Below, in pieces: positions 1 to 37,517 of a DNA stretch of 64,000 nucleotides. Every line of letters starts with the position of its first letter. The stretch's first letter is position 1. The stretch is from an uncultured Bacteroidota bacterium (GTDB taxonomy: Bacteria > Bacteroidota > Bacteroidia > Bacteroidales > F082), in NCBI GenBank assembly GCA_903957365.1, contig CAJBPB010000179.1, positions 1-64,000 on the forward strand, read 5' to 3'. The translations under genes were made by a program, and so were the position numbers. Below the pieces are notes generated by a model. That model was not told the origin of the DNA, searched no databases, and saw only the letters and a program-made list of their open reading frames with translations.

Positions 1-680
1 CTGTCGAGGCATGCGCAGAGCCAAAAAGCGGAGTTTACTTTTGGTAAATGAGCATTTTGGCTCAAGCATAACGATGAGAGGGGACTTTATAGACAGACAC
101 TAATTAGAAACATCTAACTCTGCGTAACTTTGCCTATTACTTTGCGGATCTCCACTCGGTTAAAAAACATAGAATAGAAGATTGGTAAGTTATTTTATTC
201 AGGCTATATCAAAATGACTGCGACATTATTTGAATCAATTTCTTTGTTAACCATATAAATTGATCTGAAAGTAAAAATACTGAATGAAAGGTTATTAAAC
301 TTTAGATAGTTTTATTGGAAACTGAATAAAAAGGACTGCTAATCAATATATTATCCATTGGTCCATTGCTTTCAGTTCCTGTTTTTGTTTTCCCTTCAAG
401 TACTTAGCTTACCCAAAATCCTCTTTTTCCACGTAATTTGGAATTATTATAAATTACATTCCGTCAGAAGAATAATAATTAGTCGGATTAGCAGTTTATT
501 TCTCTTGTAACCCACTGTTTACAGTGGTTTCAGCGTTTTTTCACGAAAATTTCTAAACATATGAGCTGTAGTTCATCCTTATGAACTTCCAGTTCGAACA
601 ACTTGAAGTGTATTTTTGATTGAATTATCGTTTTTTTGTACTTTGTAATAACTGGAAAAAGGATCCTTCATTCATTAAAT
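1..680. other. Left-edge non-coding region
   Basis: No convincing gene lies here. Bases 18-26 and 55-63 form a 9-bp perfect inverted repeat (GAGCCAAAA/TTTTGGCTC). A short reading frame open to the window edge ends near base 104, so the first hundred bases may be the tail of a gene or of an interspersed element whose body lies outside the window. At about 117-146 there are three loose copies of a CT(C/T)TGCG-like unit. The rest is AT-rich with no recognisable signal until the promoter before the first gene. Confidence 0.5.
615..645 (+). promoter_or_regulatory. Probable promoter of the multihaem electron-transfer operon
   Basis: A TTTG at 615-618 is followed after 20 bases by TACTTTG at 639-645. 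This resembles the Bacteroidota sigma-70 pattern TTTG/TAnnTTTG, but the -7 box is one base short of consensus. It sits 35 bases before the ATG at 681, which leaves a short leader and supports that start. Confidence 0.5.
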
Positions 681-1550
681 ATGTCAAAAGCAGCACACTT
701 CGTTTACATCGCCCTGATGTCGGTCATTGTTTTATTCTCACTTGCAGCGCTTGTTTATTATGGCAATTCATATTATCAGACAGGTATTGAGGAGCGGTTT
801 TTTCATGAAAGTCACACAACACTGAAGCCAAGCGGAGCAATCGGCCACGGATTAGGCATTGTTGGCACCATATTCATGATAATCGGAGTATTTTTTTATA
901 TGGCCCGGAAGAGAATCAGAATGTTCTCGCGTATCGGCGTCTTAAAATACTGGCTCGAATTTCACATTTTCCTGTGCACATTAGGTCCGGTGATGGTTTT
1001 GTTTCATACAGCCTTTAAGTTTGGCGGAATAGTATCGATCAGTTTCTGGAGTATGGTGGCGGTTTTTTTGAGTGGTGTTATCGGGCGGTTCATTTATATT
1101 CAGATTCCACGATCCATTGAAGGCCGCGAACTGAGTTTAAATGAAATCAGGGATATGAAAACTGATTTGCGGTCTTTACTTCCTTCAATGATTACCATTA
1201 GTGAAGAAGACTTTCAATACATCGAGAATGCCACCAAAAGAAAAATTGAGAGTAAATCAGGAACGGTTGTGTCCAGGTTTTTCAAAAAGAACAGAGAAGA
1301 AAACCGGATGTTAAGACAAGTCAAAGCTATTTTGGTGAAAAACAAACTGACCAGACAACAACGCAATGACCTGATGAAAATGGTTCAGAACGAAATTTCA
1401 TTGAATCACCGCATTGACCGCTTGCAACTCATGCAGAATTTATTCAAATACTGGCATGTCGCGCATCTGCCTTTTGCACTTATCATGCTTATTATCATGA
1501 TCATACATGTTGCTGTAACAATAACTTTTGGATTTAAATGGATTTTCTGA
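681..1550 (+). CDS. Di-haem b-type membrane cytochrome, five predicted helices (289 aa)
   Basis: Likely the inner-membrane haem b subunit of the electron-transfer chain encoded by the following genes. Five hydrophobic segments are seen at about 8-28, 55-75, 92-112, 118-140 and 262-285. Helix 3 has His95 and His109, and the last helix has His262 and His276. Each pair is spaced 14 residues, as in bis-His di-haem cytochromes b; His56 in helix 2 and His259 are further candidates. A basic, helical loop of about 120 residues (145-258) separates helices 4 and 5 and should be cytoplasmic. I chose ATG 681 over an upstream TTG because it follows a promoter-like element. The stop at 1550 is one base before the next ATG, so the two genes are surely co-transcribed. 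I cannot name a precise family; a ferric-reductase-like or quinol-linked role is also possible. Confidence 0.75.
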   Translation: MSKAAHFVYIALMSVIVLFSLAALVYYGNSYYQTGIEERFFHESHTTLKPSGAIGHGLGIVGTIFMIIGVFFYMARKRIRMFSRIGVLKYWLEFHIFLCTLGPVMVLFHTAFKFGGIVSISFWSMVAVFLSGVIGRFIYIQIPRSIEGRELSLNEIRDMKTDLRSLLPSMITISEEDFQYIENATKRKIESKSGTVVSRFFKKNREENRMLRQVKAILVKNKLTRQQRNDLMKMVQNEISLNHRIDRLQLMQNLFKYWHVAHLPFALIMLIIMIIHVAVTITFGFKWIF

Positions 1551-1551
1551 T

Positions 1552-2886
1552 ATGGAACTAGTCGTTGAACAAATATTGGTTTATGCCATCGTGATTCTAC
1601 TAATAGTGGTTGTAGTATTTATTTACCTTAGGAAACAAAAACGGGAATCGAATATCGTGGATGCGAAAATTGTACAGGCCAAACTGGATGGTTTGTATGA
1701 ACCCGTTTCATTACATCCGGTTATAGATATCAACCATTGTATTAAAAGTGGTGCCTGTATTGTGGCTTGTCCTGAGAAAGACATTCTGGGAATCAGGAAC
1801 GGTAAAGCAACCACTATCAATGCTTCACATTGTATCGGCCATGGCGCATGTTTTCACGCTTGTCCTACAGAAGCGATCACCCTTTGCATTGGTACCGAAA
1901 AACGTGGTGTTGATTTGCCACATGTGAGTCAGACTTTTGAAACCAATGTTCCGGGCGTTTATATTGCAGGTGAACTTGGCGGCATGGGATTGATTAAAAA
2001 TGCAGTGGTGCAGGGACAGCAGGCAGTTGAGAATATTGTTAAGGTTTTCAAAAAGAATCATATAGCCGATTTCGATCTCATTATTATCGGAGCAGGTCCG
2101 GCAGGAATTTCTGCGTCTCTCACAGCAAAAAAGAATGGTTTGAAATTTCTTACGCTGGAGCAGGACACATTGGGTGGAACTGTTTTTACCTTTCCCCGTT
2201 CAAAAATTGTAATGACTTCTGCCATGGACCTGCCATTATTTGGTAAGGTTAAACTCCTTGAAACCAGCAAAACAGAGTTGCTTGATTTGTGGATCAATGT
2301 TCTGGCTAAAAATGAAATCAGTATCAAAGAAAACTCGAAGGTCGAAGCCATTCAAAGCGAAAATGGTATATTTAAAGTAACCACCCTCAACAATGAGCAT
2401 TTTACCTCGAAGCATATACTTTTGACGATCGGACGAAGGGGAACACCACGTAAACTTGGCGCACCTGGCGAATCCCTTGAAAAAGTGGCGTATAGGTTAC
2501 TGGAGCCTGAAGATATCAAAGGAAAGAAAATTCTCGTGGTTGGCGGAGGCGATTCAGCCGTTGAAAGCGCTTTATTGCTCGCTGATCAAAATGTTGTCAC
2601 ACTTTCTTACAGGAGTGAATTGTTCAACAGGTTAAAAGTAAAGAATAACCAGAAAATTACTGAAGCCATCGCCAATGGATTGATTGATATGCAGTTTAAT
2701 ACCACTGTTGGACTCATCGAGAAAAATAGCGTAACTTTAGTACATGGTATCACAGCGGAACGACAGACCATTGCGAATGATCTTGTCTTTATTTTTGCCG
2801 GTGGTGAATTACCGACACAGTTTTTACAGAAAATTGGAATACAGATAACCAAGAAATTTGGTGACGCTTTATTAAAACATAATTAA
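1552..2886 (+). CDS. Membrane-anchored Fe-S/FAD NAD(P)H oxidoreductase (444 aa)
   Basis: Probable cytoplasmic electron-input subunit. An N-terminal helix (about 5-26) followed by Arg/Lys places the rest in the cytoplasm. Residues 57-112 form a ferredoxin-like domain with two clusters, C63/C69/C73-Pro and C94/C100/C104-Pro. In both, the usual second Cys of CxxCxxCxxxCP is replaced (Ser66, His97). A segment with VPGVYIAGELGG (about 133-144) resembles the C-terminal FAD contact of thioredoxin-reductase-fold enzymes. It is followed by a TrxR-like module with the FAD loop GAGPAG (180-185) and the NAD(P)H loop GGGDSAVE (331-338). No CxxC redox disulphide is seen in that module, so it is not a true thioredoxin reductase. 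The start is the ATG one base after the cytochrome b stop, and the next gene begins 11 bases downstream. Inference: NAD(P)H to FAD to Fe-S to haem b. Confidence 0.8.
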   Translation: MELVVEQILVYAIVILLIVVVVFIYLRKQKRESNIVDAKIVQAKLDGLYEPVSLHPVIDINHCIKSGACIVACPEKDILGIRNGKATTINASHCIGHGACFHACPTEAITLCIGTEKRGVDLPHVSQTFETNVPGVYIAGELGGMGLIKNAVVQGQQAVENIVKVFKKNHIADFDLIIIGAGPAGISASLTAKKNGLKFLTLEQDTLGGTVFTFPRSKIVMTSAMDLPLFGKVKLLETSKTELLDLWINVLAKNEISIKENSKVEAIQSENGIFKVTTLNNEHFTSKHILLTIGRRGTPRKLGAPGESLEKVAYRLLEPEDIKGKKILVVGGGDSAVESALLLADQNVVTLSYRSELFNRLKVKNNQKITEAIANGLIDMQFNTTVGLIEKNSVTLVHGITAERQTIANDLVFIFAGGELPTQFLQKIGIQITKKFGDALLKHN

Positions 2887-2897
2887 TCCGGACAATA

Positions 2898-4499
2898 ATG
2901 AAAAAGCGGTTTGCATTGTATGTTGTATTGCTGGTTCTATTTAATCTACTGAATAACAGTAGTAATGCACAAATTTCTCCCGGTGATTTGTGCGAACCAC
3001 ATGCGCATCTGGAAGGGATGACCAATTGTACGCTATGTCATATACTGGGTGACAAAGTGTCGAATGATAAATGTCTGGATTGCCACAAGGAGCTCAAAAG
3101 CCGTATTGACCAGAACAAAGGGTATCATGTGTCAACCGAGATTAAAGGTAAAGAATGTGTAAGTTGCCACAATGATCACCATGGACGTAAATTCGAAGTG
3201 ATTCGTTTTCAGACTGAAAAATTTGATCATAAACTTACCGGTTACACCCTCGAAGGCGCCCATGCCAAAAAGGAATGTAAAGATTGCCACAAGTCTGAAT
3301 TCATCACCGATGCGGATGTTAAGAAACTCAAGTTCGATTCCTATCTTGGATTATCCACCGAATGTCTGGGCTGTCATGAAGATTACCACCAGAAAACCTT
3401 GTCTTCATCTTGTTTGAATTGCCATGATTATGAGGCTTTTAAACCGGCACCTAAGTTTGATCACAACAAAGCGAAATTCAAACTCGTGGGCAAACACACC
3501 GAAGTTGTTTGTTTGGATTGTCACAAAAAAGAACAGAAAGCCGGGAAAGATTACCAGATTTTTGCTGGAATGGAATTTAAAAACTGTACCGCATGCCACG
3601 AGGATGTGCATGACAATAAATTCGGACAGGATTGTCGCAAATGCCATTCAGAAGAATCCTTTCATACCATCAAGGGGATGAAGGATTTCGATCACAGCAA
3701 AACGAATTTTAAACTCGAAGGAAAACACAATACCGTTTCCTGTACTTTGTGTCATAAAACCAACCTGACCGATCCTGTAAAACATGAGCGTTGCATCGAT
3801 TGTCATACCGATTATCATGAAAAGCAGTTTGTAAAAGATGGTATTTCACCTGATTGTATTGAATGTCATTCGGTGAATGGTTTTGCGGGTTCATCCTTTA
3901 CAATCGAGAAACATGCCCTCAGTAAGTTTCCATTACAAGGCGCCCATCTGGCAACACCTTGTTTCGTTTGTCATAAAAAACAGGAAAGGTGGAGTTTCAG
4001 ACAGATTGGAAATCAATGTGTTGACTGTCATGAAAACATTCATAAGACATTTATTGACGAGAAATATTACCCGGAATCAGATTGCAAAACGTGTCACAGT
4101 GAAAACTTTTGGCGTGAAGTAACTTTTGATCATAATCTGACGCCATATCCGCTTGAAGGCGCTCACAAGGATCAGGGTTGTCGTGAATGTCACTTTAAGG
4201 TTGGTGCCGATGGCGAAGTACATCAGCAGTTTACAGGATTATCACAGCAATGCTCCAATTGTCACAAAGATTCGCACCGCAATCAGTTTGAGAAAAATGG
4301 TGTTACAGATTGCAAAGCCTGCCATGAAAAGATAAGCTGGGATGTTACTCAGTTTGATCACAATAAAACCAGTTTTAAACTTGAGGGAAAACATGCTGAG
4401 GTGGCATGTAAAGAATGCCATAAAGAGTCGCTGGAACCAGATTCAAAGTTTGTACTTTACAAAATAAACGAATTCAAATGCGAAGACTGTCATCATTAA
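2898..4499 (+). CDS. Periplasmic 20-haem c-type cytochrome (533 aa)
   Basis: A secreted multihaem cytochrome with a signal peptide ending around residue 24 (a hydrophobic run, then SNA-Q). I count 20 CxxCH haem c sites spread over the whole mature chain, about one per 25 residues. The last sits at the extreme C-terminus (CEDCHH). A recurring pattern FDH, about 10 residues, G(K/A)H, 4-5 residues, CxxCH appears at least six times. The extra His residues are natural distal ligands, suggesting bis-His haems of the class III/c7 type. No lipobox and no sorting domain are seen, so a soluble periplasmic shuttle between the inner-membrane module and the outer membrane is the best guess. The following gene starts inside its last codons (22-base overlap). 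Confidence 0.9.
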   Translation: MKKRFALYVVLLVLFNLLNNSSNAQISPGDLCEPHAHLEGMTNCTLCHILGDKVSNDKCLDCHKELKSRIDQNKGYHVSTEIKGKECVSCHNDHHGRKFEVIRFQTEKFDHKLTGYTLEGAHAKKECKDCHKSEFITDADVKKLKFDSYLGLSTECLGCHEDYHQKTLSSSCLNCHDYEAFKPAPKFDHNKAKFKLVGKHTEVVCLDCHKKEQKAGKDYQIFAGMEFKNCTACHEDVHDNKFGQDCRKCHSEESFHTIKGMKDFDHSKTNFKLEGKHNTVSCTLCHKTNLTDPVKHERCIDCHTDYHEKQFVKDGISPDCIECHSVNGFAGSSFTIEKHALSKFPLQGAHLATPCFVCHKKQERWSFRQIGNQCVDCHENIHKTFIDEKYYPESDCKTCHSENFWREVTFDHNLTPYPLEGAHKDQGCRECHFKVGADGEVHQQFTGLSQQCSNCHKDSHRNQFEKNGVTDCKACHEKISWDVTQFDHNKTSFKLEGKHAEVACKECHKESLEPDSKFVLYKINEFKCEDCHH

Positions 4500-7400
4500 T
4501 TATCTTATTGACCTTGTCGGTAAGTTTATTTGCCCAGTCGCCTCATGGAGACGAATTGAAGATCAGTTGTGCGGATTGCCACAACCCGGATGGTTGGAAA
4601 ATGGTGGAAGGAAGATACACCTTCACCCACAGTTCAACTGATTTCCCACTGGTTGGCCAGCATCAGACGGTCAATTGTAAAGCTTGTCACACTGATCTGG
4701 TATTCTCAAAAGCCGAATCAGATTGTATTTCCTGTCACAAAGATGTGCATGAGCAAACAGTGGGTAATGAATGTTCAAGATGTCATACACCGCAATCGTG
4801 GTTGGTTTCAAATACTACCCAATTACACGAACAAAGTCGTTTCCCGTTGCTTGGCGCTCACGCTACTGCTGATTGTTTTCAATGTCATGAATCAGCATCC
4901 CTGCTTCGTTTTGATCCACTTGGAATCGATTGTTACGATTGTCATCAGACTGATTATCAGGAAGCAAAAGAACCTGACCATGTGGCTGGTAACTTTTCAA
5001 CGGACTGTGCCGAATGTCATGCGATGAATGCCTTTGAATGGAAAGGAGCCGGGATAAGCCATCTTTTCTTCCCGCTCACACAAGGTCATGAAATAAGTGA
5101 TTGCTTTGCCTGCCATGTTCAGGGACAGGATTACAATAGTATTTCGCAGGAATGTGTAAGTTGCCATCAATCTGATTATAACGCTGCGACAAATCCAAAT
5201 CACCAGACATCAGGTTTCTCAACCGATTGTGCTCAATGTCATACGACCAGTCCGGGCTGGAAACCAGCCAAAATGACTGACCATGATGGGCAGTATTTCC
5301 CGATTTATTCTGGCAAACACGAAGGTGAATGGGACAATTGCTATGATTGTCATACAACCTCAGGTAATTATGGATTGTTTAGTTGCATCGATTGCCACGA
5401 ACACAACCAATCGGATATGAACAGCGAACACGATGATGTCGGGGGATATTCATGGAACAGCAATGCTTGTTTTGAATGTCATCCGCAAGGTGATGGAGAA
5501 GGAAGTTTTAATCATAGTCAATCGAATTTTCCATTGTCAGGCGCACATCTTACAACTGATTGTTCAGAATGCCATGCTGCCGGTTACACCGGAACAACTA
5601 CAGCATGCGGCGATTGCCATTTAGCCGATTTTAATGCGGCGACCAATCCAAATCACTCCGAGCTAGGTCTGGCGAATAACTGCGAAAGCTGCCACGATGC
5701 AACTCCGGGCTGGTCGCCTGCTACGATGGAGAATCACAATGAATTTTATTTACTTGATGGGGCACATCTTGATATAGCCTCTGATTGTATATCCTGTCAC
5801 GATGGAAACTATACCAACTCGCCCAATACCTGTTTTGGCTGTCACGATGATAATTTCAATCAGACAACCAATCCGAATCACCAGGAAATAGGAATTGCCA
5901 CCGAATGTGAGGATTGTCATACAACGATCCCCGACTGGAAACCAGCAACATTCCCGACGCACAATGATTATTATGTACTCAATGGAGCACACAATACCAT
6001 AGCTACCGACTGTTTTACCTGTCATGAGGGAAATTATATCAATACACCTAATTTGTGTTTTGGTTGCCATGCTGCTGATTATGACCAGACATCAAATCCG
6101 CCTCACGCCGCAGCACAGTTCTCAACTGAATGTGAAACCTGCCATTCAGAAACGGCCTGGTCACCTTCCACCTTTGACCATGATGCGCAATATTTTCCGA
6201 TTTACAGCGGAAGTCATGCCGGTGAATGGACAGCATGTACCGAATGCCATACTACATCAGGCAATTATACTGTTTTCAGCTGTATTGATTGTCACGATCA
6301 CAATCAGGTTGATACTGACAATGAGCACAATGGTGTAAGTGGTTATACCTACAACAGCAATGCATGTTTTGAATGTCATCCAACAGGTGATGGAGAAGGT
6401 TTTAATCATAATCTTTCAGATTTCCCATTGACAGGAGCTCATCTCACTGTGGAATGTATTGCTTGTCATGAGAATGGGTTTAGTGGAACAACAACGGTTT
6501 GTTCAGAATGCCATACCTCTGATTATAATCAGGCAACAAATCCGAACCATATACAAGCCTCAATTCCAACTACCTGCGAAACATGTCATACCACAGAACC
6601 TGGCTGGGCTCCAGCTTCTTTCCCCATTCATAATGATGTTTATCCGCTGACGGGTGCGCATGCTACTGTTCAGAATGACTGTTTCACTTGTCATGAAGGT
6701 AATTATACAAATACTCCGGATGCCTGTTCAGGTTGTCATACTGATGAGTATAATCAATCCGTCAATCCAAACCATTTACAGGCCGGGATTCCGACAAGCT
6801 GTGAAACCTGCCACACGACTGTGCCTGGCTGGGCGCCTGCCACCTTCCCGATCCATAATGATTATTATGCTCTGAATGGTGCACATACAACAGTAGATTG
6901 TTTTACATGTCATGAAGGAAGTTATACAAACACACCTAATTTGTGTTTTGGTTGCCATGCGGATGATTATAACCAGACTACCAATCCGAATCATATTGCC
7001 GCGCAGTTCCCGACCACATGTGAATCATGTCATACGGAAACAGCCTGGGAGCCAGCAACTTTTGACCATGATGGACAATATTTCCCGATATATAGTGGAA
7101 GTCATGCTGGTGAATGGACCAATTGTAATGAATGTCATACAACTCCTGGTAATTTCGCTGAATTCAATTGTATCATTTGTCACACACAAACTGAAACAAA
7201 TGATGAGCATCAGGGTGTGAGTGGTTATGCATGGAACAGTGAAGCCTGTTTTGCCTGTCATCCTAACGGTGAAGGAGACGGATTTAATCATAGTCTGACC
7301 GATTTCCCGCTTACAGGAGCGCATCTGGCTGTGGCTTGTATCGAGTGTCACGAAAATGGCTACACAGGTACAACAACAGTTTGCTCTGAATGTCATACTG

Positions 7401-9094
7401 CTGACTATAACCAGAGTACAAATCCAAATCACCTGCAGAATAATATCCCGACAACCTGCGAAACATGTCACACAACCGCGCCTGGCTGGGCACCGGCCAC
7501 TTTCCCGATTCACAATGAATATTATGAACTGACAGGGGCACACCAGACCATTTCAGCGGATTGTTTTGCCTGTCATGAAGGTAATTACACGAATACCCCA
7601 AATGCCTGTGCCGGATGTCATACAGATGATTATAATGCCACATTAAATCCGAACCACGCAGCAATCAATATCCCGACAGATTGTGAATTGTGTCATACTA
7701 CCTTGCCTGATTGGGCGCCGGCTACATTCCCGATTCACAACGATTATTACGTTTTGGCAGGTGCACACGCTGCAATAGCAGCCAATTGTGCAGAATGCCA
7801 TAATGGGGATTATAATAACACACCTAACAGTTGTTATGGATGTCATCAGGATGATTATGACCAGACAACAGATCCAAATCATGCTGTTGCCCAATTCCCG
7901 ACAACCTGTGAAGATTGCCATACTGAAACAGCCTGGACACCCTCTACATTTGACCACGACGGGCAATATTTTCCGATCTATTCAGGGTCACATCAGGGTG
8001 AGTGGACCAGTTGTGCCGAGTGTCATACAAATCCAAGTGACTATACTGAGTTTAATTGTATTATCTGTCACACCCAGCCTGATATGAATGATGAACATCA
8101 GGGTGTGAGTGGTTATACCTGGAACAGTGATGCTTGTTTTGCCTGTCATCCAAATGGGGAAGGTGATGGATTTAATCATAATACTTCTAATTTCCCGTTA
8201 ACCGGAGCTCATATAACCGTCGCCTGTATCGAATGTCACGAGAATGGTTATGCAGGAACCTCGATGGTTTGTTCCGATTGCCATACTGATGATTATAACC
8301 AAAGTACAAATCCGAATCACCAGCAGGCTGGTATTCCAAATACATGTGAAACCTGTCATACAACGGCTGCGGGCTGGGCACCGGCAACTTTCCCGATTCA
8401 CAATGATTACTATGCCTTAACAGGAGCCCATCAGACCATCTCAGCGGAATGTTTTGCCTGTCATGAAGGAGATTATAACGACACACCAAATACGTGTGTT
8501 GGTTGCCATACCACAGATTATAACCAGGCCACAAATCCAAATCACCTGACTCTTAATATCCCTACAGATTGTGAAATGTGTCATACAACCAATCCAACCT
8601 GGGAGCCGGCTACCTTCCCGATACACAGTAACTATTATGTGTTGTCGGGTGCCCATGTTTCAGTGAATTGTGATGAGTGTCATGGAGGAAACTATAACAA
8701 TAATACCCCGACTGATTGTTTTGGCTGTCATCAGGATGATTATAACCAGACCAGTGATCCGGATCATGAATTGGCTCAGTTCCCGACAACTTGTGAAGAT
8801 TGTCATACCCAGACAGCCTGGGAGCCTTCGACTTTCGATCATGACGGGCAGTATTTCCCAATATATTCAGGTGAACATAACGGAGAATGGAATACTTGCG
8901 CGGATTGTCACACAACGCCAACAAACTATGCCATCTTCTCATGCATCACCTGTCATGAACACCGGCAATCAGAAATGGATTCGGAACATCAGGGTGTTTC
9001 AGGTTACAGCTATAACAGCAATGCGTGTTATACTTGTCATCCTGACGGAAGCAGTGATAAAGGATTTCAACAAATAATTAAAAGAGAAAACTAA
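4478..9094 (+). CDS. Giant 61-haem c-type cytochrome (1538 aa)
   Basis: I count 61 CxxCH motifs in 1538 residues, and essentially every Cys belongs to one. A signal peptide (residues 1-20, ending LFAQ, then SPHG) supports the ATG at 4478 although it overlaps the previous gene by 22 bases. The layout is regular. Haems 1-12 form an N-terminal module (to about residue 330). Four repeats of 12 haems then begin at Cys331, 630, 924 and 1220 (periods 299, 294, 296 and 297 residues), and haem 61 is at Cys1517. Each repeat runs from CHPxGxGEGFNH through GAH, PNH and PIHND segments to FDHDGQYFPIYSGxH and SCIxCH. Interspersed His residues could ligate every haem. The tail ends in REN with no T9SS domain, lipobox or membrane helix. 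An outer-surface or barrel-spanning wire is inferred from the adjoining barrel gene. Confidence 0.92.
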   Translation: MRRLSSLIILLTLSVSLFAQSPHGDELKISCADCHNPDGWKMVEGRYTFTHSSTDFPLVGQHQTVNCKACHTDLVFSKAESDCISCHKDVHEQTVGNECSRCHTPQSWLVSNTTQLHEQSRFPLLGAHATADCFQCHESASLLRFDPLGIDCYDCHQTDYQEAKEPDHVAGNFSTDCAECHAMNAFEWKGAGISHLFFPLTQGHEISDCFACHVQGQDYNSISQECVSCHQSDYNAATNPNHQTSGFSTDCAQCHTTSPGWKPAKMTDHDGQYFPIYSGKHEGEWDNCYDCHTTSGNYGLFSCIDCHEHNQSDMNSEHDDVGGYSWNSNACFECHPQGDGEGSFNHSQSNFPLSGAHLTTDCSECHAAGYTGTTTACGDCHLADFNAATNPNHSELGLANNCESCHDATPGWSPATMENHNEFYLLDGAHLDIASDCISCHDGNYTNSPNTCFGCHDDNFNQTTNPNHQEIGIATECEDCHTTIPDWKPATFPTHNDYYVLNGAHNTIATDCFTCHEGNYINTPNLCFGCHAADYDQTSNPPHAAAQFSTECETCHSETAWSPSTFDHDAQYFPIYSGSHAGEWTACTECHTTSGNYTVFSCIDCHDHNQVDTDNEHNGVSGYTYNSNACFECHPTGDGEGFNHNLSDFPLTGAHLTVECIACHENGFSGTTTVCSECHTSDYNQATNPNHIQASIPTTCETCHTTEPGWAPASFPIHNDVYPLTGAHATVQNDCFTCHEGNYTNTPDACSGCHTDEYNQSVNPNHLQAGIPTSCETCHTTVPGWAPATFPIHNDYYALNGAHTTVDCFTCHEGSYTNTPNLCFGCHADDYNQTTNPNHIAAQFPTTCESCHTETAWEPATFDHDGQYFPIYSGSHAGEWTNCNECHTTPGNFAEFNCIICHTQTETNDEHQGVSGYAWNSEACFACHPNGEGDGFNHSLTDFPLTGAHLAVACIECHENGYTGTTTVCSECHTADYNQSTNPNHLQNNIPTTCETCHTTAPGWAPATFPIHNEYYELTGAHQTISADCFACHEGNYTNTPNACAGCHTDDYNATLNPNHAAINIPTDCELCHTTLPDWAPATFPIHNDYYVLAGAHAAIAANCAECHNGDYNNTPNSCYGCHQDDYDQTTDPNHAVAQFPTTCEDCHTETAWTPSTFDHDGQYFPIYSGSHQGEWTSCAECHTNPSDYTEFNCIICHTQPDMNDEHQGVSGYTWNSDACFACHPNGEGDGFNHNTSNFPLTGAHITVACIECHENGYAGTSMVCSDCHTDDYNQSTNPNHQQAGIPNTCETCHTTAAGWAPATFPIHNDYYALTGAHQTISAECFACHEGDYNDTPNTCVGCHTTDYNQATNPNHLTLNIPTDCEMCHTTNPTWEPATFPIHSNYYVLSGAHVSVNCDECHGGNYNNNTPTDCFGCHQDDYNQTSDPDHELAQFPTTCEDCHTQTAWEPSTFDHDGQYFPIYSGEHNGEWNTCADCHTTPTNYAIFSCITCHEHRQSEMDSEHQGVSGYSYNSNACYTCHPDGSSDKGFQQIIKREN

Positions 9095-9105
9095 AACCAA
9101 AAATC

Positions 9106-10716
9106 ATGAAGTACGTTTTTTCATTCATAATGTTTTTTCTCTCCATCATGCTGGTAACAGGTCAGGAATCCGCAGAAATTAAAGAAGGAAAAGTTTCTTA
9201 TGTCACGAACCAGAATGTGTATGTGCGATTTTCAAGTACTGAAAATATTACCATAGGAGATACTCTTTTTGTGATGAAGAATGACAAAAAAGTACCCCTG
9301 CTTAAAGTGATAACGCTATCATCCATTTCTGCAGTTTGTACGCCTTTAACCAGTGAGGTAATAAAAGTTGAAACACAAATATTTGCCAATACCAGACAAA
9401 TTCCTGTTCAGAATGTTCAGGCAGAATCTCAGCAAGTAAATCCTGTAGTACCTCTGGCTGCAAAAACGGTTATAAATCAAGACACACTTGCTGCTGGCAA
9501 AGTAACGCCTAAGCAGGAAATCAGTGGCCGTCTCGGGGTTTCCTCTTATCTTAATTTTTCGAATTCTGCAGCTGGTAATTCACAGAGAATGCGTTATACG
9601 TTTTCGATGAATGCGAAAAATATTTCTGGTTCAAAGCTTTCAGCGGAAACGTATATTTCTTTTGTTCATAAAAGCAAGCAGTGGAGCGAGATTCAGGAAG
9701 ATATTTTCAACGGTTTAAAAATATACAGTCTGGCTTTAAACTATAAATTCAATGACAATCATCAGGTTTGGGCAGGAAGGAAAATTAATCCAAAAATATC
9801 CAATATTGGTGCCGTTGATGGTGTTCAGTATGAGGCAAAGATGAAAGCATTTACAGTAGGACTGGTGGGCGGTTTCCGCCCCGATTATGCTAATTATACT
9901 TTCAGTTCAAAACTTCCGCAGTTTGGCGCTTTTGTCAGTCATGACAAGAAAACTGAAATTGGCAATATGCAAAATTCACTCGCGTTTTTTGAACAGCGAA
10001 ACAGCGGGAATACTGACCGCCGCTTTGCTTATTTTCAACACTCCAACTCATTGGTGAAAAATCTTTACTTTTTTGGGTCACTGGAAGCCGATTTGTACAA
10101 GAAAGTAGGGGACACAATTAGTAATTCACCACGCTTGTCGAATATGTATTTTTTATTGCGGTACCGCATTATTAAACCATTAACTGTTTCAATATCATAT
10201 AGTTCAAGAACGAATATTATATATTACGAAACCTATAAGGACATTATTGACCGATTGCTGGAAACCGAATCAACACAGGGTTTTATGGGACAAATTAATT
10301 ACCGTCCGGTAAAGTACATGACTGTAGGGTTAAAAGGAAGTTACCGGGTCAGGAAAAATGATCCGAAACCAACTGAAAATGCCTACGCATATATCACCTA
10401 CAGCCGACTTCCGGTGATCAATGCCTCTGCGACCGTTTCAACAACCTGGATGCAGACTTCCTATCTTACCGGGAATATTTACAGTATCAATTTTTCAAAG
10501 GATTTTCTGGCTGGGAGTTTATATGGAGGTATAGGCTACCGTTACGTTGATTATGCTTTTTATAGTGGAGAGTTTGAACAAAAGCAACATATGGCTGAAT
10601 TGAATCTGACGATGCGAATCACGAAGAAGCTCTATTGTTCAATGAATTATGAAGGAACATTTGAAAAATCGACCAATCTGAGTCATATATATCTAAATGT
10701 AACACAGCGGTTTTAA
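9106..10716 (+). CDS. Outer-membrane beta-barrel, probable porin partner of the cytochromes (536 aa)
   Basis: The signal peptide ends near residue 19 (VTG-Q). Residues about 25-110 form a small beta-rich domain with an SH3-like feel (GKVSYV, VYVRF, GDTLFVM), followed by a linker to about 130. From about 137 onward there are alternating amphipathic strands with aromatic girdles, and the chain ends in Phe (TQRF), as outer-membrane barrels do. About 400 residues is enough for some 18-22 strands. The gene lies 11 bases after the 61-haem gene and before the 34-haem gene. That order is expected for a porin-cytochrome conduit in which a barrel sheathes a multihaem protein, as in MtrB or PCC systems. 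No sequence similarity to MtrB is obvious and no CxxC is present. The assignment rests on architecture and context. Confidence 0.75.
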   Translation: MKYVFSFIMFFLSIMLVTGQESAEIKEGKVSYVTNQNVYVRFSSTENITIGDTLFVMKNDKKVPLLKVITLSSISAVCTPLTSEVIKVETQIFANTRQIPVQNVQAESQQVNPVVPLAAKTVINQDTLAAGKVTPKQEISGRLGVSSYLNFSNSAAGNSQRMRYTFSMNAKNISGSKLSAETYISFVHKSKQWSEIQEDIFNGLKIYSLALNYKFNDNHQVWAGRKINPKISNIGAVDGVQYEAKMKAFTVGLVGGFRPDYANYTFSSKLPQFGAFVSHDKKTEIGNMQNSLAFFEQRNSGNTDRRFAYFQHSNSLVKNLYFFGSLEADLYKKVGDTISNSPRLSNMYFLLRYRIIKPLTVSISYSSRTNIIYYETYKDIIDRLLETESTQGFMGQINYRPVKYMTVGLKGSYRVRKNDPKPTENAYAYITYSRLPVINASATVSTTWMQTSYLTGNIYSINFSKDFLAGSLYGGIGYRYVDYAFYSGEFEQKQHMAELNLTMRITKKLYCSMNYEGTFEKSTNLSHIYLNVTQRF

Positions 10717-10871
10717 TCGATTCCTGACATGCCTGGCATTACTGATATACAGGATTTTCTGAATCCCCGATTGTAAATTCCCATTGATAACAATCCAAAA
10801 GGAAAACTGAATACATATCCTGATGAAATCAAAATAGAATGCTTTCAATTATATTGAACAGAAAATACAAA

Positions 10872-13490
10872 ATGCAACGACTAACAATAATCATATTTTT
10901 CCTGATCCTTTCAACTACATTGATCGCACAATCACCGCATGGCGATGAATTGAAAATCAGCTGTTCAGAATGTCACAATCCGAATGGCTGGAAAATGGTG
11001 GAAGGAACCTTCACTTTCACACACAGTTCAACAGATTTTCCATTGGTCGGGCAACATCAATCAATCAGTTGTAAAGCATGTCATAACGATCTTATTTTTT
11101 CGAAGGCTCAGACTGATTGCATTTCATGCCATACAGATATCCATGAACAAACTGTCGGGAATGAATGTTCGCGTTGCCACACTCCGCAATCATGGCTGGT
11201 TGAAAATACAACACAACTGCACGAGCAGAGTCGTTTCCCGTTGCTTGGTGCTCATGCCACTGCCGATTGTTTTCAGTGTCATGAATCCGCATCATTGCTT
11301 CGTTTTGATCCGCTTAGTATCGATTGTTTCGATTGTCATCAGACTGATTATCAGGCGGCAAAAGAACCTGACCATGTGGCTGGTAATTTTTCAACGGACT
11401 GTGCCGAATGTCATGCAATGAATGCCTTTGAATGGAAAGGAGCCGGGATAAGCCATCTTTTCTTCCCGCTCACACAAGGTCATGAAATCAGTGATTGCTT
11501 TGCCTGTCATGTTCAAGGCCAGAATTACAATAGTATTAGTCAGGAATGTGTCAGCTGCCATCAATCTGACTATAATTCAACAATAAATCCAGATCATCAG
11601 GCATCAGGATTTTCAACTGATTGTTCACAATGTCATTCTACCAGTCCGGGCTGGAAACCAGCCAAAATGACTGACCATGATGGGCAGTATTTTCCGATTT
11701 ATTCAGGCAAACACGAGGGTGAATGGAATAATTGCAATGAATGCCATACCACATCAGGAAATTACGGATTATTCAGCTGTATTGATTGTCACGAACACAA
11801 CCAATCAGATATGAACAGCGAACACAATGATGTTGGAGGTTATTCATGGAACAGCAACGCCTGCTTTGAATGTCATCCCCAAGGAGATGGAGAAGGAAGT
11901 TTTAACCACAGTCAATCGAATTTCCCATTGACCGGTGCGCATCTGACAACGGATTGTTCACAATGTCATGCAACGGGTTATACCGGAACTACCACAGCGT
12001 GTGGTGATTGTCACCTTGTCGATTTTAACCAGACGACCAATCCAAACCACACCGAATTAGGACTTGCGGTTAGCTGTGAAACTTGCCATACTACTGAATC
12101 TGGCTGGACACCTGCTACAATGGACAATCACAACGATTACTTTGTTTTGAATGGCGCGCATATAACAACGGATTGTTTTGCGTGCCATGAAGGAAACTAT
12201 ACCGCGACTCCTAATCTTTGCTTTGGTTGCCATGCTGATAATTATAATGAAACCACAAATCCTCCCCATATAGCCTCACAATTTAATACGGAATGTGAAA
12301 CGTGTCATTCAGAAACAGCATGGACTCCTGCAACTTTTGACCACGATGCCGAATTTTTCCCTATTTACAGTGGAAGCCACGCCGGTGAATGGACCAATTG
12401 TATTGAATGCCATACGACACCAAACAATTATACTTTGTTCAGTTGCATTGATTGTCACGATCACAATCAGACCGATATGGCTGATGAGCACAATGGGATT
12501 TCCGGATATAGCTGGAATAGTAATGCCTGTCTTGAGTGTCATCCAAATGGTGATGGAGAAGGATTTAACCATGCAACTTCAAATTTTCCATTGACAGGAG
12601 CACATCTGACAGTGGATTGTATTGGGTGTCATGAAAGTGGCTATTCCGGGACAACTACAGTTTGTGCGGGTTGCCATACGGATAATTACAATCAGGCAAC
12701 CAATCCGAATCACATTCAGAACGGAATTTCGACAAACTGTGAATCCTGCCACACAACCGAAGCAGGATGGGCACCGGCAACTTTCGCTATTCACAATGAT
12801 TTTTACGCATTGACAGGAGCGCATTCTACTATCCAAAACGATTGCTTTACCTGTCACGAAGGAAATTATAACAATACACCGAATGCCTGTTCAGGTTGTC
12901 ATACGCCTGATTATGCCCAGGCGACCAATCCGAACCATCAGCAACTTGGGATTCCAACTACATGCGAAACATGTCATACAACAGTATCAGGATGGGCGCC
13001 GGCAACTTTCCCGACACACAATGATTACTATGTCCTTACAGGAGCCCATGCATCAATCAGCACTAGTTGTTTTGAGTGTCACTCCGGAAATTATACCAAT
13101 ACACCCAATACCTGTTATGGTTGTCATCAGGACGATTTTAACCAGACCAATGATCCGGATCATCAGGTAGCACAATTTCCAACAGCCTGTGAAGATTGTC
13201 ATTCTCAATCTGCCTGGGAGCCATCTACCTTCGACCACGACGGGCAGTATTTTCCGATTTATTCTGGACAACATGATGGAGAATGGACCACATGTATTGA
13301 ATGTCATACCAATCCTACGAACTACGCTGTTTTCAGTTGTATTGATTGTCACGAACACAATCAGGCTGAAATGGCCAGTGAGCACAATGGTGTAAGCGGT
13401 TACCAATGGAATAGCAATGCATGTCTGGATTGCCATCCCAATGGAGATGGTGATAAAGGAAAACTTAATAAGGTGTCACGGGAAAACTAA
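10872..13490 (+). CDS. 34-haem c-type cytochrome, paralogue of the 61-haem protein (872 aa)
   Basis: I count 34 CxxCH motifs. The start at ATG 10872 is chosen over an ATG 33 bases upstream because the signal peptide then aligns residue for residue with the 61-haem paralogue and Cys331 again opens haem 13. Layout: a 12-haem N-terminal module almost identical to the paralogue; a 9-haem repeat (222 residues, from Cys331); a full 12-haem repeat (298 residues); then the single terminal haem. The short repeat lacks exactly one three-haem unit of about 76 residues. The C-terminus also ends in REN and has no sorting domain. The 155-base gap after the barrel gene has no clear promoter or terminator, so co-transcription with the operon is likely but not shown. 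Confidence 0.92.
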   Translation: MQRLTIIIFFLILSTTLIAQSPHGDELKISCSECHNPNGWKMVEGTFTFTHSSTDFPLVGQHQSISCKACHNDLIFSKAQTDCISCHTDIHEQTVGNECSRCHTPQSWLVENTTQLHEQSRFPLLGAHATADCFQCHESASLLRFDPLSIDCFDCHQTDYQAAKEPDHVAGNFSTDCAECHAMNAFEWKGAGISHLFFPLTQGHEISDCFACHVQGQNYNSISQECVSCHQSDYNSTINPDHQASGFSTDCSQCHSTSPGWKPAKMTDHDGQYFPIYSGKHEGEWNNCNECHTTSGNYGLFSCIDCHEHNQSDMNSEHNDVGGYSWNSNACFECHPQGDGEGSFNHSQSNFPLTGAHLTTDCSQCHATGYTGTTTACGDCHLVDFNQTTNPNHTELGLAVSCETCHTTESGWTPATMDNHNDYFVLNGAHITTDCFACHEGNYTATPNLCFGCHADNYNETTNPPHIASQFNTECETCHSETAWTPATFDHDAEFFPIYSGSHAGEWTNCIECHTTPNNYTLFSCIDCHDHNQTDMADEHNGISGYSWNSNACLECHPNGDGEGFNHATSNFPLTGAHLTVDCIGCHESGYSGTTTVCAGCHTDNYNQATNPNHIQNGISTNCESCHTTEAGWAPATFAIHNDFYALTGAHSTIQNDCFTCHEGNYNNTPNACSGCHTPDYAQATNPNHQQLGIPTTCETCHTTVSGWAPATFPTHNDYYVLTGAHASISTSCFECHSGNYTNTPNTCYGCHQDDFNQTNDPDHQVAQFPTACEDCHSQSAWEPSTFDHDGQYFPIYSGQHDGEWTTCIECHTNPTNYAVFSCIDCHEHNQAEMASEHNGVSGYQWNSNACLDCHPNGDGDKGKLNKVSREN

Positions 13491-13519: not shown

Positions 13520-14392
13520 TTAATATGTCTTTGTCATGGTCATTGGAACAGCAATTGTGAAATCTGCAATACCAATTGCTTCTTTTGGCAATTTACGGAT
13601 GTCATCCTGTTCAATTGTTGTGATGGACATGATCGTTAATTCAGGACGATATTTTTTCAGATACCAGATGATTCCTTCAAAATTATCAGAATGGCCGCTG
13701 CCATTGTAATGTATAAACATTGAACCTTCAACAAAATTCTTCTGTATAAACCAGGCCATTGTAGCGTCTTTGATTGCCTGGGCCTTTGGTAAATTATCAT
13801 TCATATGGCCGGCAGCATCTGGACCCATCATTGCCATAATATTTTTATAACAGGCCACTTCACCATCATATTCCATTGGAAGAGGTACCATCCATCCTTT
13901 AATCTCAGGACTCAGCGTGTCAAGCGATTCCAGTCCTTTTTTATACACCTGAGAGGCATATTTACGGGGTATGTTGGTTGCAATGAAAGGCAGTTTGTTT
14001 TCTTTGGCAATATCAACAAGTGGTTGGTAATCAGTTTCAAAATTAGGCCATAAACGTGCTCTTTTAGCCAAAGTATCAGCATTGATACTATCGGTAAGGT
14101 ATTCATTCAGCGCGAGTTGATTGTCTGTTTCAAACATTTCAGCACCAAGCACCATTTTCCCATCTTTCAGTTTTATCAGATCCTTTGTTAAATCGTATTG
14201 CAGCCAATGCGCAATTGGATTATTGTGTAACTCTCCAAAAAACACTACATCCACCTTTGAGGCTGCTTCAAGCAAGGCTTTATATCTGGTCTCTTTTCCT
14301 TTTTTGTTAAAAAGGTTATATGCAGGTTTGTCGCTTGTGAAAGCGAAAACTGTAATCAGGATTATTGACAGAAAGAAACTTTTTTTGATCAT
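13520..14392 (-). CDS. ChaN-family haem-binding protein (290 aa)
   Basis: Matches the ChaN/haem-binding uptake family (Cofac_haem_bdg, Tiki fold). It has the motif GELHNNPIAHW near residues 54-64 and a conserved NGSGHSDN near 230, both typical of the family. An N-terminal signal segment (about 1-20) predicts export to the periplasm or outer membrane. The family binds haem and has been linked to iron uptake, while relatives are metalloproteases of the EreA/Tiki superfamily; the exact role is unknown. It lies 25 bases downstream of the cytidine deaminase on the same strand, so the two may be co-transcribed. It faces the large cytochrome operon, and a link to haem supply is speculative. Confidence 0.8.
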   Translation of the reverse strand: MIKKSFFLSIILITVFAFTSDKPAYNLFNKKGKETRYKALLEAASKVDVVFFGELHNNPIAHWLQYDLTKDLIKLKDGKMVLGAEMFETDNQLALNEYLTDSINADTLAKRARLWPNFETDYQPLVDIAKENKLPFIATNIPRKYASQVYKKGLESLDTLSPEIKGWMVPLPMEYDGEVACYKNIMAMMGPDAAGHMNDNLPKAQAIKDATMAWFIQKNFVEGSMFIHYNGSGHSDNFEGIIWYLKKYRPELTIMSITTIEQDDIRKLPKEAIGIADFTIAVPMTMTKTY

Positions 14393-23822: not shown

Positions 23823-23828
23823 CACGCA

Positions 23829-24206
23829 CGAAACATCGGCTGTCGCGGAAGCTGTAAGGCTTACGAGGAAAGTCGGGACAGCGCAGAGCGCCATACTTCC
23901 TAACGGGAAGGGGCTTTTCCGGAAACAGGAAAGTCACAGAGAGTGCCACAGAAAATTACCGTCTCACTTTGGTGGGATAAGGGTGAAAACGTGAGGTAAG
24001 AGCTCACGCTGCCGGGAGGTAACTTCGGGCAGGGGTAAACCTTATGGGCTGCAAGGCCAAATATGCCGGCGAAAGTCACATTGTGACCGGAAAGATTGCT
24101 CGTCTGATGCCGGTGGGTAGGCTGCTAGAGTGGTTTGGTGACGAACCACCCAGATAAATGACAGTCATCTGCTTTTGCAGAGACAGAATCCCGCTTAGGA
24201 TGTTAG
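23829..24206 (+). ncRNA. rnpB: RNase P RNA (class A)
   Basis: Catalytic RNA of RNase P. Conserved blocks are visible: the 5' core gaggaaagtcgggaca near 23870, ggtaaaccttatgggctgcaag-like P8-P10 sequence near 24035 (core GGGCTGCAAGG), and the 3' core AGATAAATGACAGTC near 24155 with acagaatcccgcttag. P1 can be drawn by pairing AACATC (23832-23837) with GATGTT (24199-24204), which sets the ends. The first core reads GTCGGGACA rather than the usual GTCCGGGC, a small lineage variation. A promoter precedes and a hairpin terminator follows. Confidence 0.93.
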
Positions 24207-24208
24207 TG

Positions 24209-24249
24209 AAGAATCCGTGGTGCGCAAGCCCTGCGGATTCTTGGTTTTA
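24209..24249 (+). terminator. Terminator of rnpB
   Basis: The stem AAGAATCCG (24209-24217)/CGGATTCTT (24234-24242) is followed by GGTTTT, directly after the 3' end of the RNase P RNA. Confidence 0.75.
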
Positions 24250-35213: not shown

Positions 35214-37517
35214 TTATATTAGGTTTGAAATAGATTTAAGCACTACCTCTTTTGTTGCAGGCAAAGAAAAGTCAGGCTCTTTGGTGTGATTTGCAACCGA
35301 TGAGATAGCGTCTTTGATGGCCATCCAAACCGAAAAAGCCAGCATGAACGGGGGTTCACCAATCGCCTTACTCTGATGAATTGCGTTCGGATTATTTGCA
35401 TTTTTCAATAAATCAGCCTTGTATCTGACTGGAAAATCCCCAATTCCGGGTATTTTATAAGTGTCAGGTGAGCAATTTAATAAGTTTCCTTTTTTATCAT
35501 ACCGGACGACCTCTGTTGTACACCAGCCAACACCCTGAATAAATCCACCCATAATCTGTCCTTTATCAATCTCAGGATGAATAGATTTCCCGGCATCATG
35601 CAGAATATCAGTCTGTATTAATCTTGTATTCCCGGTTAAAATATCTACTTCCACTTCAGAAACTGCCATTCCAAATGCATAATAATGAAATGGTTTTCCT
35701 TTGCCTTTTTCACGGTCAAAGAAAATATCTGGTGTTCCATAATACCCGGTCGCACTCAAACTTATCTGAGCAATATGAGCTTGCCTGATCAGATCTGAAA
35801 AACTGAGTTTGATTTCAGGACTCGATTTCAAATAAATAAAGTTGTCTCTGAAAATAAGTGGACCATCATTTATGCTGTCATCTTTAGCAGATAACATTTT
35901 ATAAGCCAATGGTTTCAATCTGTTTTTTATTGTTCTGATCGCATCTTTCACTGCCATTCCATTCAGATCGGTTCCTGATGAGGCTGCAGTAGGCGAGGTG
36001 TTCGGCACTTTGGAAGTATTGGTCGGACTGATGGTAATTCTATCCATCGTTAAGCCGAATTCTCTGGCTGCGATATGCAGAATCTTGGTATGTAAGCCTT
36101 GTCCCATCTCTGTTCCACCATGGTTTACCATTACAGAACCATCTTTGTAAACCAAAACCAAAGCGCCTGCCTGATTAAGAAAAGCGGTTGTAAAAGAGAT
36201 GCCAAATTTCAACGGAGTTAAGGCCAGACCTTTCTTCAGGAAATGGCTTTTCTGATTGAAAAGTTCAATTTCCTTTCTTCTCTTATAATAGTCACTCGAT
36301 TTGATAAGTTCATTCCAAAGACGCTGAAGTTTATTGTTTTTCACCGTTTGACCATAATGGGTCACGTTTCTGGAATGTATCTGATAAAAGTTATTGAATC
36401 GTATTTCCGAAGCATCTTTACCAAGAAAACGCGCAATGCGATCTATCACATTTTCGATTACAGCCATGCCCTGCGGACCACCGAAACCTCGAAACGCTGT
36501 GTTTGACGGTTGATTTGTTTTCCACATTGTACCAGTAACACGCATGTTTTCAATAAAATAGCTATTGTCTGCATGGAACATTGCTCTTTCGAGAATAGGA
36601 ATGGATAAATCAAATGATGATCCAGCATTTGCATGTAAGTCAACGTTGTAGGCAGATATAATTCCGTTTTCATCAAAACCCGCTTCATAATAGGAAAGAA
36701 ATGGATGCCTTTTGCCAGTTATTTTCTGGTCTTCATCGCGCGAAAGTTGCATCAATACCGGCTGACCTGTTGCATCAGCCAGCAATGCAGCCCAGGCGGC
36801 AATTGGATTTGCCTGTGTTTCCTTCCCGCCAAATCCGCCTCCCATCCTTTTTACTTCACAGATAACCTGATTTGATTGTAATCCAAGCACTTCAGCTACA
36901 ACATTTTGGGTTTCTGTGGGGTTTTGCGAAGAAGCGTAAACAGTCATGTTTCTGTTTTCACCAGGCACACAAACCGCGGATTGTGTCTCGAGATACCAGT
37001 GTTCCTGGGCGCCAGTTGTTAATGAACCTTGAATATGAAATTTTGCGGTTTCTATGGCAACGTCAGGATTCCCGGTTGTAATACTGCGGGTAGGACTGAG
37101 TTTATTTCCAACAGCCATGGCATCTTCAATGGTAAGGATAGCCTCTTGTTCTTCGAAATCAATTTTTATTTTTTTTGAGGCTTCAATTGCGGTCTCACGA
37201 TCTTTTGCAGCAATAAGAAAAATGACTTGTCCGATAAAAGTTACTTTATCTTCAGCCAGACAAAACTCATCATGCGTAAACGCATTCAATTGATTTATAC
37301 CGGGAATACGCCTGAAATCAAGAATATCAACAACTCCTTCGGTCTGTAATGCCTCAGATAAATCATATTTTTTGATTAAAGCATGTGCAATCGGGCTAAA
37401 ATAAGCTTGTCCCCACAAAAGATTGTCGTGTAATTGAATATCCGAAACATATTTTGCCTCACCTGTCACATGGCTGACGGCACTTTCGTGAGGGAAGTGT
37501 TTTAGTTCAGTCTTCAT
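35214..37517 (-). CDS. xdhB: Xanthine dehydrogenase-type molybdenum-binding subunit (767 aa)
   Basis: Catalytic molybdopterin subunit of a xanthine oxidase-family hydroxylase. Present are RMGGGFGGKE (Moco contact, about residue 225), the TAFRGFGGPQG segment (about 340) and the C-terminal GEPPFML with the catalytic Glu (about 720). The ATG at 37517 overlaps the xdhA stop by ATGA, which fixes the start; an upstream in-frame start is rejected. Together with xdhA and XdhC it should hydroxylate a purine (hypoxanthine/xanthine) or a related N-heterocycle. Substrate specificity is not provable from sequence. Confidence 0.9.
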   Translation of the reverse strand: MKTELKHFPHESAVSHVTGEAKYVSDIQLHDNLLWGQAYFSPIAHALIKKYDLSEALQTEGVVDILDFRRIPGINQLNAFTHDEFCLAEDKVTFIGQVIFLIAAKDRETAIEASKKIKIDFEEQEAILTIEDAMAVGNKLSPTRSITTGNPDVAIETAKFHIQGSLTTGAQEHWYLETQSAVCVPGENRNMTVYASSQNPTETQNVVAEVLGLQSNQVICEVKRMGGGFGGKETQANPIAAWAALLADATGQPVLMQLSRDEDQKITGKRHPFLSYYEAGFDENGIISAYNVDLHANAGSSFDLSIPILERAMFHADNSYFIENMRVTGTMWKTNQPSNTAFRGFGGPQGMAVIENVIDRIARFLGKDASEIRFNNFYQIHSRNVTHYGQTVKNNKLQRLWNELIKSSDYYKRRKEIELFNQKSHFLKKGLALTPLKFGISFTTAFLNQAGALVLVYKDGSVMVNHGGTEMGQGLHTKILHIAAREFGLTMDRITISPTNTSKVPNTSPTAASSGTDLNGMAVKDAIRTIKNRLKPLAYKMLSAKDDSINDGPLIFRDNFIYLKSSPEIKLSFSDLIRQAHIAQISLSATGYYGTPDIFFDREKGKGKPFHYYAFGMAVSEVEVDILTGNTRLIQTDILHDAGKSIHPEIDKGQIMGGFIQGVGWCTTEVVRYDKKGNLLNCSPDTYKIPGIGDFPVRYKADLLKNANNPNAIHQSKAIGEPPFMLAFSVWMAIKDAISSVANHTKEPDFSLPATKEVVLKSISNLI

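Follow-up and report, generated by a model that had tools for sequence, protein, structure and literature searches.

Background

The locus described here raises the question of whether a bacterium of the phylum Bacteroidota can carry electrons from its cytoplasm to the outside of the cell and, if so, from which donor and in which direction. It lies in a stretch of 64,000 bp (the window; positions 1 to 64,000 of contig CAJBPB010000179.1, assembly GCA_903957365.1) from an uncultured member of the Bacteroidales lineage F082, where six neighboring genes encode an inner-membrane cytochrome b (cytb), a flavoprotein with iron-sulfur motifs (fdx), three multihaem cytochromes (mhc1, mhc2 and mhc3) and an outer-membrane barrel (omp). 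A first-pass annotation, made from the letters of the window, had interpreted these genes as a six-gene operon for an electron conduit from NAD(P)H to the cell surface, analogous to the porin-cytochrome complexes (PCC) of other phyla but separately built. We arrive at a modified answer. Five of the six genes are a conserved unit, and we consider it fairly likely that they constitute a Bacteroidota form of the conduit type known as PCC3, equipped with its own cytoplasmic electron-input module and serving the outward disposal of electrons from NAD(P)H.

The system is real, conserved and probably important. It would extend a putative conduit type of Proteobacteria to a large phylum mostly regarded as fermenting polymer degraders, and the NAD(P)H-type reductase found throughout points to a possible donor for the conduit, a question that is open for PCC3.

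Results and discussion

Gene block in the window

The window is the first part of a 70.2-kb contig, with window position 1 coinciding with the contig end, and the 4.4-Mb genome comprises 385 contigs and is 96% complete. Calls of open reading frames (ORFs) and motif counts confirm the six co-directional genes of the first-pass annotation, which contain 0, 0, 20, 61, 0 and 34 CxxCH motifs, 115 in total (Table 1). A chance origin of these motifs is excluded because shuffled mhc1, mhc2 and mhc3 proteins yield only 0.3–0.8 motifs each (means of 0.26, 0.76 and 0.46, or ~1.5 summed). The block had been said to begin at position 615, which needs correction: the first ORF (636–1550) opens at a TTG at 636, and alignment of homologues shifts the probable start of cytb to the ATG at 681. 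The fdx ORF (1528–2886) can likewise open at a TTG at 1528, and its homologues of 444 amino acids point to a start at 1552. There is a 22-bp overlap between mhc1 and mhc2, and relatives show comparable overlaps of 19–22 bp. A promoter scan found promoter-like sites everywhere and terminator-like sites more rarely than in shuffled sequences; both results are uninformative.

Table 1. Genes of the putative conduit locus, in window coordinates (TM, transmembrane; SPI, signal peptidase I; a slash marks the end of the signal peptide)
Gene	Position	Strand	Description
cytb	681..1550	+	five-TM di-haem cytochrome b, PCC3-type inner-membrane protein
fdx	1552..2886	+	N-terminal TM anchor, two 3-Cys Fe-S motifs, YpdA/TrxR-like FAD and NAD(P)H domain
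mhc1	2898..4499	+	20-haem cytochrome, Sec/SPI signal (NA/Q), probably periplasm-spanning
mhc2	4478..9094	+	giant 61-haem cytochrome, SPI signal, no lipobox
omp	9106..10716	+	outer-membrane beta-barrel
mhc3	10839..13490	+	34-haem paralogue of mhc2; first Met of likely signal peptide at 10872

A conserved unit of five genes

The barrel protein was used as the query for surveys of 61 relatives, of wider sets of 295 genomes from the order and 395 from the phylum, and of the GTDB contig set. It is present in 19 of the relatives, in 31 genomes of the order and in 37 of the phylum; in the GTDB contig set it matches 319 stretches, the best 80 of which are titled Bacteroidota-type except for one metagenome-assembled genome (MAG) titled Chlorobiota. 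Where the locus is not cut by a contig start, the exact order cytb, fdx, multihaem cytochrome (MHC), MHC, barrel is found in 54 of 60 loci, which span many Bacteroidota genera, and three more loci add one MHC. The fdx gene occurs in every complete cluster and in nearly every uncut one. Distant classes of the phylum have the same five families together, with fdx relocated 3' of the barrel gene; because fdx stays clustered despite this rearrangement, we conclude that it belongs with the set and is not a chance neighbor. The full set is also found in a 100-kb plasmid record of Emticicia oligotrophica, where a gene for a ResB-CcsA haem-lyase fusion precedes it and one for a GW-domain protein follows it, and searches of plasmids with the barrel, mhc1 and fdx as queries gave matches from Emticicia only.

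The genes are also inherited together. Among the 61 relatives, presence of the barrel and presence of mhc1 are concordant in 60, the exception (G001) having a partial mhc1 match, and cytb tracks both apart from one further partial and one marginal match. Gene trees of the four single-copy parts are congruent (r 0.89–0.96 in 79 loci), an agreement to which shared descent contributes. The first-pass annotation had staked its interpretation on synteny of the block in Bacteroidota genomes and on co-occurrence of the genes in relatives, and both hold for the five genes cytb, fdx, MHC20, MHCn and barrel, which are gained and lost jointly.

The proposed six-gene unit was rejected. The sixth gene, mhc3, is 84% identical to mhc2 at the DNA level across the first 1.2 kb and is seen in the window's own genus, while a few other genomes have their own extra MHCs beside the barrel. 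We conclude that mhc3 is a lineage-specific copy of mhc2, a local duplicate outside the conserved core.

Some of the surveyed loci contain additional genes. At locus L042 (G004:C1), positions 10509–13069 hold what seems to be a duplicate in decay, namely a second, frame-broken copy of the barrel gene together with a short cytochrome of 9 haems; the same genome has the operon with an intact barrel at another locus, L035. Locus L164 (G445:C57) contains at 1722–10862 a multihaem cluster (9, 6, 6 and 14 haems) that also includes cytochrome b-like and Rieske-like genes; it adjoins the barrel gene on the opposite strand and may be a linked respiratory module. Past the barrel at locus L173 (G323:C127), positions 3128–7652 encode two further multihaem cytochromes, of 34 and 10 haems, and a second cytochrome b that has diverged, and together these suggest a second partial conduit.

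One cytochrome of fixed size and one of variable size

The haem number of mhc1 is 20 in 66 of 69 proteins and 23 in the other three. In 67 aligned mhc1 sequences all 20 CxxCH histidines and exactly 20 non-motif histidines are invariant (a 21st, H95, is conserved at 91%), which matches the count expected if each haem has two His ligands, as we infer for mhc1. In contrast, the mhc2-type cytochrome has 13–73 haems (median 30, n = 80) and as few as 10 in distant relatives. These giants gain 24.5 amino acids and 1.01 non-motif His per haem (n = 80, r > 0.99), with 26.1 ± 0.8 amino acids per haem overall. The mhc2 of the window consists of one haem plus twenty 3-haem modules, arranged largely as four 12-haem A-B-C-D super-repeats; protein-level comparison of the modules gives 53–82% identity between like-positioned and mostly lower identity between unlike-positioned ones. 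A search for tandem repeats at the DNA level found no array because the modules have diverged, and it is the protein-level comparison that reveals them. Intact clusters occur in three genomes of the window's genus, whose mhc2 proteins hold 61, 61 and 73 haems, that is, a step of twelve. The length of mhc2 varies mostly by three-haem modules; a stricter rule, that the haem number is always 1 mod 3, was rejected as true for 58 of 80 proteins only.

The fixed size of mhc1, whose SPI signal suggests a periplasmic location, presumably reflects a fixed gap that it has to span, namely the periplasm, while mhc2 would not be subject to that constraint. A comparable remark has been made on the span of the PCC3 periplasmic cytochrome (PMC10734462). 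The pattern of histidines and haems fits pure wires, one of fixed span and one extendable, and the pair of a fixed 20-haem and a variable 10–73-haem cytochrome provides a natural series for the relation of wire length to function.

Probable inner-membrane input module

The cytb of the window contains the motif Wx3Hx13H at W106-H110-H124 and at W273-H277-H291, and SGVIG at 146–150 (numbered from the TTG at 636). Five predicted helices, with Wx3Hx13H on the third and fifth and SGxxG between them, are found in 71 of 78 homologues. He et al. 2017 (PMC5566968) characterized the inner-membrane protein of PCC3 and PCC4 by five helices, with SGxxG on the fourth and Wx3Hx13H on the third and fifth, and the window cytb matches this published PCC3 signature exactly. 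Two Hx13H motifs are common to the PCC3 inner-membrane protein and the di-haem b FRD family (PMC5566968). There is no Pfam match in cytb to PF01794 (the ferric reductase / NAD(P)H oxidase domain), and a search of the PDB with the cytb sequence profile gave no meaningful relative.

The fdx protein has an N-terminal TM helix in all 75 homologues tested, two C-x5-C-x3-C motifs in 82 of 83, and an FAD/NAD(P) domain of the YpdA/thioredoxin-reductase-like type without CxxC. In the second Fe-S motif His replaces the usual second Cys (82 of 82), and the corresponding position of the first motif is mostly Thr or Ser, with Cys in 8 proteins. The motifs recall [3Fe-4S] or His-ligated clusters. Basic residues C-terminal to the TM helix suggest that the domain is cytoplasmic, and the conserved motif [YF]R-x3-F-x-R suggests NADPH as the donor.

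Homologues of cytb also occur on proteobacterial and Spirosoma plasmids (E values of 1e-10 to 1e-5 for complete ones), where they adjoin an unrelated FAD_binding_6/NAD_binding_1/Fer2 reductase and a seven-haem cytochrome. This pairing with a reductase provides independent support for the NAD(P)H link of cytb. The trio of reductase, five-TM cytochrome b and seven-haem cytochrome (L144–L148), often followed by a DUF1622 or small hypothetical gene, is seen repeatedly on plasmids for metal resistance in Gammaproteobacteria, Alphaproteobacteria and Spirosoma.

Outer-membrane barrel and haem c maturation

The outer-membrane barrel of the first-pass annotation is borne out by an AlphaFold2 model built from 24 sequences (mean predicted local distance difference test score, pLDDT, 80; predicted template modeling score 0.63), which contains a small N-terminal beta domain (residues 25–95), a disordered linker (98–132) and 22 barrel strands (138–535). 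In a PDB fold search the best matches were generic porins and pilus ushers, and with a TM-score of at most 0.49 no fold family was assigned. MtrB was absent from the 50 best fold matches, and the sequence profile gave no meaningful match in the PDB and no MtrB among its profile matches. A relationship of the barrel to MtrB is therefore unsupported; the model speaks for the presence and size of a barrel only.

Lack of a cytochrome c maturation system had been named as the main ground for abandoning the conduit interpretation. A single locus in the genome encodes CcsA and ResB, as a CcsBA-type fusion of 1026 amino acids; haem c maturation is therefore present and the objection does not apply, nor were the other refuting conditions named in the first-pass annotation borne out. 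Gene order and haem counts further point to NrfHA, an alternative complex III (ACIII) cluster and an octahaem cytochrome in the genome.

Proposed mechanism and alternative explanations

We propose that NAD(P)H, probably NADPH, would reduce the FAD of the membrane-anchored fdx, from which electrons would reach the two b haems of cytb by way of two Fe-S clusters in fdx and so cross the inner membrane. From there the fixed 20-haem wire of mhc1 would bridge the periplasm, the outer membrane would be crossed at the 22-strand barrel, and the extendable giant mhc2 (in the window together with mhc3) would lead the electrons outside. A likely use would be to unload surplus reducing power on Fe(III)/Mn(IV) minerals, humics or partner cells. 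Each transfer step, the outward direction and the choice of NADPH rather than quinol as donor are inferred, as are the identity of the cytochrome that would occupy the barrel and the placement of the giant at the cell surface. That the unit is a trans-envelope conduit of PCC3 type appears highly probable; given such a conduit, outward flow from NAD(P)H is likely, with a good deal less certainty.

Outward movement of electrons without protons dissipates the membrane potential, as in NADPH oxidases. The conduit would therefore conserve no energy and act as a redox valve, which suits a fermenter. In strains of Labilibaculum a few per cent of the electrons go to Fe(III), and Mn(IV) is reduced by one strain, along a route reported as unexplained (PMC5760507); the operon is a concrete gene set by which Bacteroidota could do so. 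It is complete in Labilibaculum euxinus and L. sp. K2S, and the fermentative Fe(III)/Mn(IV) reducers are other species of the genus (PMC5760507). The idea that the operon is universal in Labilibaculum was rejected, and because only four of the nine genomes searched in this group carry it, its link to metal reduction is suggestive only.

A bolder version of the proposal, which we offer tentatively and with some doubt, is that of a quinone-independent, phylum-wide exhaust running from NADPH through FAD and the 3-Cys Fe-S clusters, two b haems and at least 80 bis-His c haems to the outside. In that version the width of the periplasm would fix the length of the first wire, and the second would be tunable in length by three-haem modules and twelve-haem super-repeats. 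If true, this exhaust would be the machinery that has been missing for metal reduction by fermenters.

Several observations weigh against an outward conduit. The operon is patchy, as seen from its frequency in the order and in the Labilibaculum group, and one carrier, Emticicia oligotrophica, is aerobic. The predicted structure of mhc1 is of low confidence (pLDDT 58). The signal peptides of mhc1, mhc2 and mhc3 end A/Q, a pattern described for Bacteroidetes SPI substrates (PMC5837995); there is no lipobox, and inspection of the C-termini found no type IX secretion sorting domain, which leaves the giant without an evident route to the surface. Moreover, proteobacterial PCC3 is usually discussed for Fe(II) oxidation, that is, for inward flow.

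It is this association with iron oxidation that makes inward, quinone-coupled flow the main rival. The conduit would be the same, with the cytochrome b acting on the quinone pool and electrons flowing inward (from Fe(II), metal or other cells) or both ways, and fdx would make NAD(P)H or have a regulatory role. The PCC3/PCC4 signature of cytb is in its favor, as the proteins that bear it are, in the proposal of He et al., cytochromes b that act on quinones while electrons flow inward (PMC5566968), and PCC conduits can be bidirectional (PMC8258643). However, an NAD(P)H-type flavoprotein is present in every complete cluster and is kept through rearrangement, the step from Fe(II) to NAD(P)+ is strongly uphill by general thermodynamics, and the cultured carriers known by name, such as Labilibaculum euxinus, Draconibacterium aestuarii and a Maribellus species, live as heterotrophs or fermenters (PMC5760507). 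We regard this rival as unlikely, though worth keeping in mind. We consider it improbable that the giant cytochromes are instead a periplasmic capacitor, an electron reserve for other reductases, with the barrel a neighboring channel that holds no cytochrome: the presence of Sec/SPI signals only, without a lipobox, would agree with it, and the NrfHA, ACIII and octahaem cytochrome of the genome could draw on such a pool, but the barrel is co-inherited with the cytochromes, and the difference between a fixed 20-haem and a freely variable cytochrome suggests that only one of them must fit a fixed gap. Finally, polymerization of mhc2 and mhc3 into extracellular filaments of the OmcS/OmcE/OmcZ type, in place of single long wires, is very improbable despite the repetitive haem chains, one extra His per haem, few residues per haem and lack of a lipid anchor, given that known filament cytochromes have few haems per subunit whereas here length evolves within one polypeptide (10–73 haems), which looks like a substitute for polymerization, and that a PDB profile search with the 20-haem mhc1 (not mhc2) as query found only Geobacter dodecahaem-type cytochromes, Hmc and one cytochrome c7-like chain.

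Other features of the window

A gene for a ChaN/Tiki-type haem-binding protein (PF04187, E 7e-57) at 13520–14392 on the − strand is convergent with the operon and adjoins it, which makes it an iron/haem-handling neighbor; at locus L026 a gene of 290 amino acids occupies the equivalent place and strand. The window also contains a complete class A RNase P RNA (23827–24212, +), which is ordinary, and two genes for a xanthine-dehydrogenase-like molybdopterin enzyme (MoCoBD and FAD/2Fe-2S subunits; 35214–38992, −), which looks ordinary.

Comparison with known conduits

PCC3 consists of a porin, a periplasmic cytochrome with a median of 21 haems and an extracellular one with a median of 34 and up to 85 haems (He et al. 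2017, PMC5566968), so the earlier statement that porin-cytochrome systems usually have about 10 haems per protein does not apply to it. Its cytochromes have 22–39 residues per haem and are built of repeats (PMC5566968). The Bacteroidota unit resembles it in having a barrel gene, a ~20-haem and a larger, variable cytochrome built of repeats at ~26 residues per haem, and an inner-membrane protein of ~300 amino acids with five TM helices, SGxxG and two Wx3Hx13H motifs. This likeness is judged by published descriptions and the cytb signature, the barrel and cytochromes being set beside PCC3 by description only. Since cytb has the PCC3 signature and the haem counts, residues per haem and repeats match, the claim of a separately built conduit is not supported. 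The PCC3 of Gallionellaceae is among the closest known systems (PMC10734462).

There are also differences. PCC3 is described as a cluster of four genes, none of which encodes a dedicated NAD(P)H reductase (PMC5566968, PMC12442390), whereas the Bacteroidota conduit has a constant Fe-S/FAD reductase of the NAD(P)H type and another gene order; we read the presence of fdx as a variant of PCC3 and not as exclusion from it. The barrel has 22 strands, and most PCC3 porins are reported to be larger, with up to 42.

The plasmid trios of Alteromonas, Methylophaga, Qipengyuania, Acetobacter and Spirosoma, which lie among metal-resistance genes, share with our locus a homologous cytochrome b with paired Hx13H and SGxxG, adjoined by an NAD(P)H-type reductase and a multihaem cytochrome, but the reductase belongs to an unrelated family, there is one small cytochrome, and no adjacent barrel gene is listed. 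MtrCAB, MtoAB and PioAB are similar in having a periplasmic cytochrome and an outer-membrane barrel, and MtrCAB also an outer cytochrome. However, barrels of the MtrB type are built of 26 strands and MtrA binds 10 haems, compared to 22 and 20 here, and MtrCAB includes the lipoprotein MtrC and a CymA-type input, in place of which we find cytochromes without a lipobox and a cytochrome b with an NAD(P)H reductase. Against the DmsE/MtrA-type model TIGR03508 mhc1 scores 37 bits, far under the cut-off of 192.

Within the phylum, the Bacteroidetes_1 cluster from an anode biofilm (PMC8258643) has multihaem cytochromes beside a barrel gene, with six cytochrome genes, and the putative novel PCCs of Trout Bog Bacteroidetes (PMC6344600) combine cytochromes with a barrel gene; extracellular electron transfer was proposed for both, and both may include relatives of the window operon. 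These undefined porin-cytochrome candidates in Bacteroidetes MAGs (PMC6344600, PMC8258643) aside, we found no report of a PCC3-type conduit in Bacteroidota in the open-licence papers searched, and a description elsewhere is possible. What is new is the Bacteroidota-wide occurrence, a barrel of 22 strands whose sequence shows no relation to solved MtrB, and the constant NAD(P)H-type reductase. We conclude that the system is a variant of a known, functionally unproven kind of conduit rather than an independent invention.

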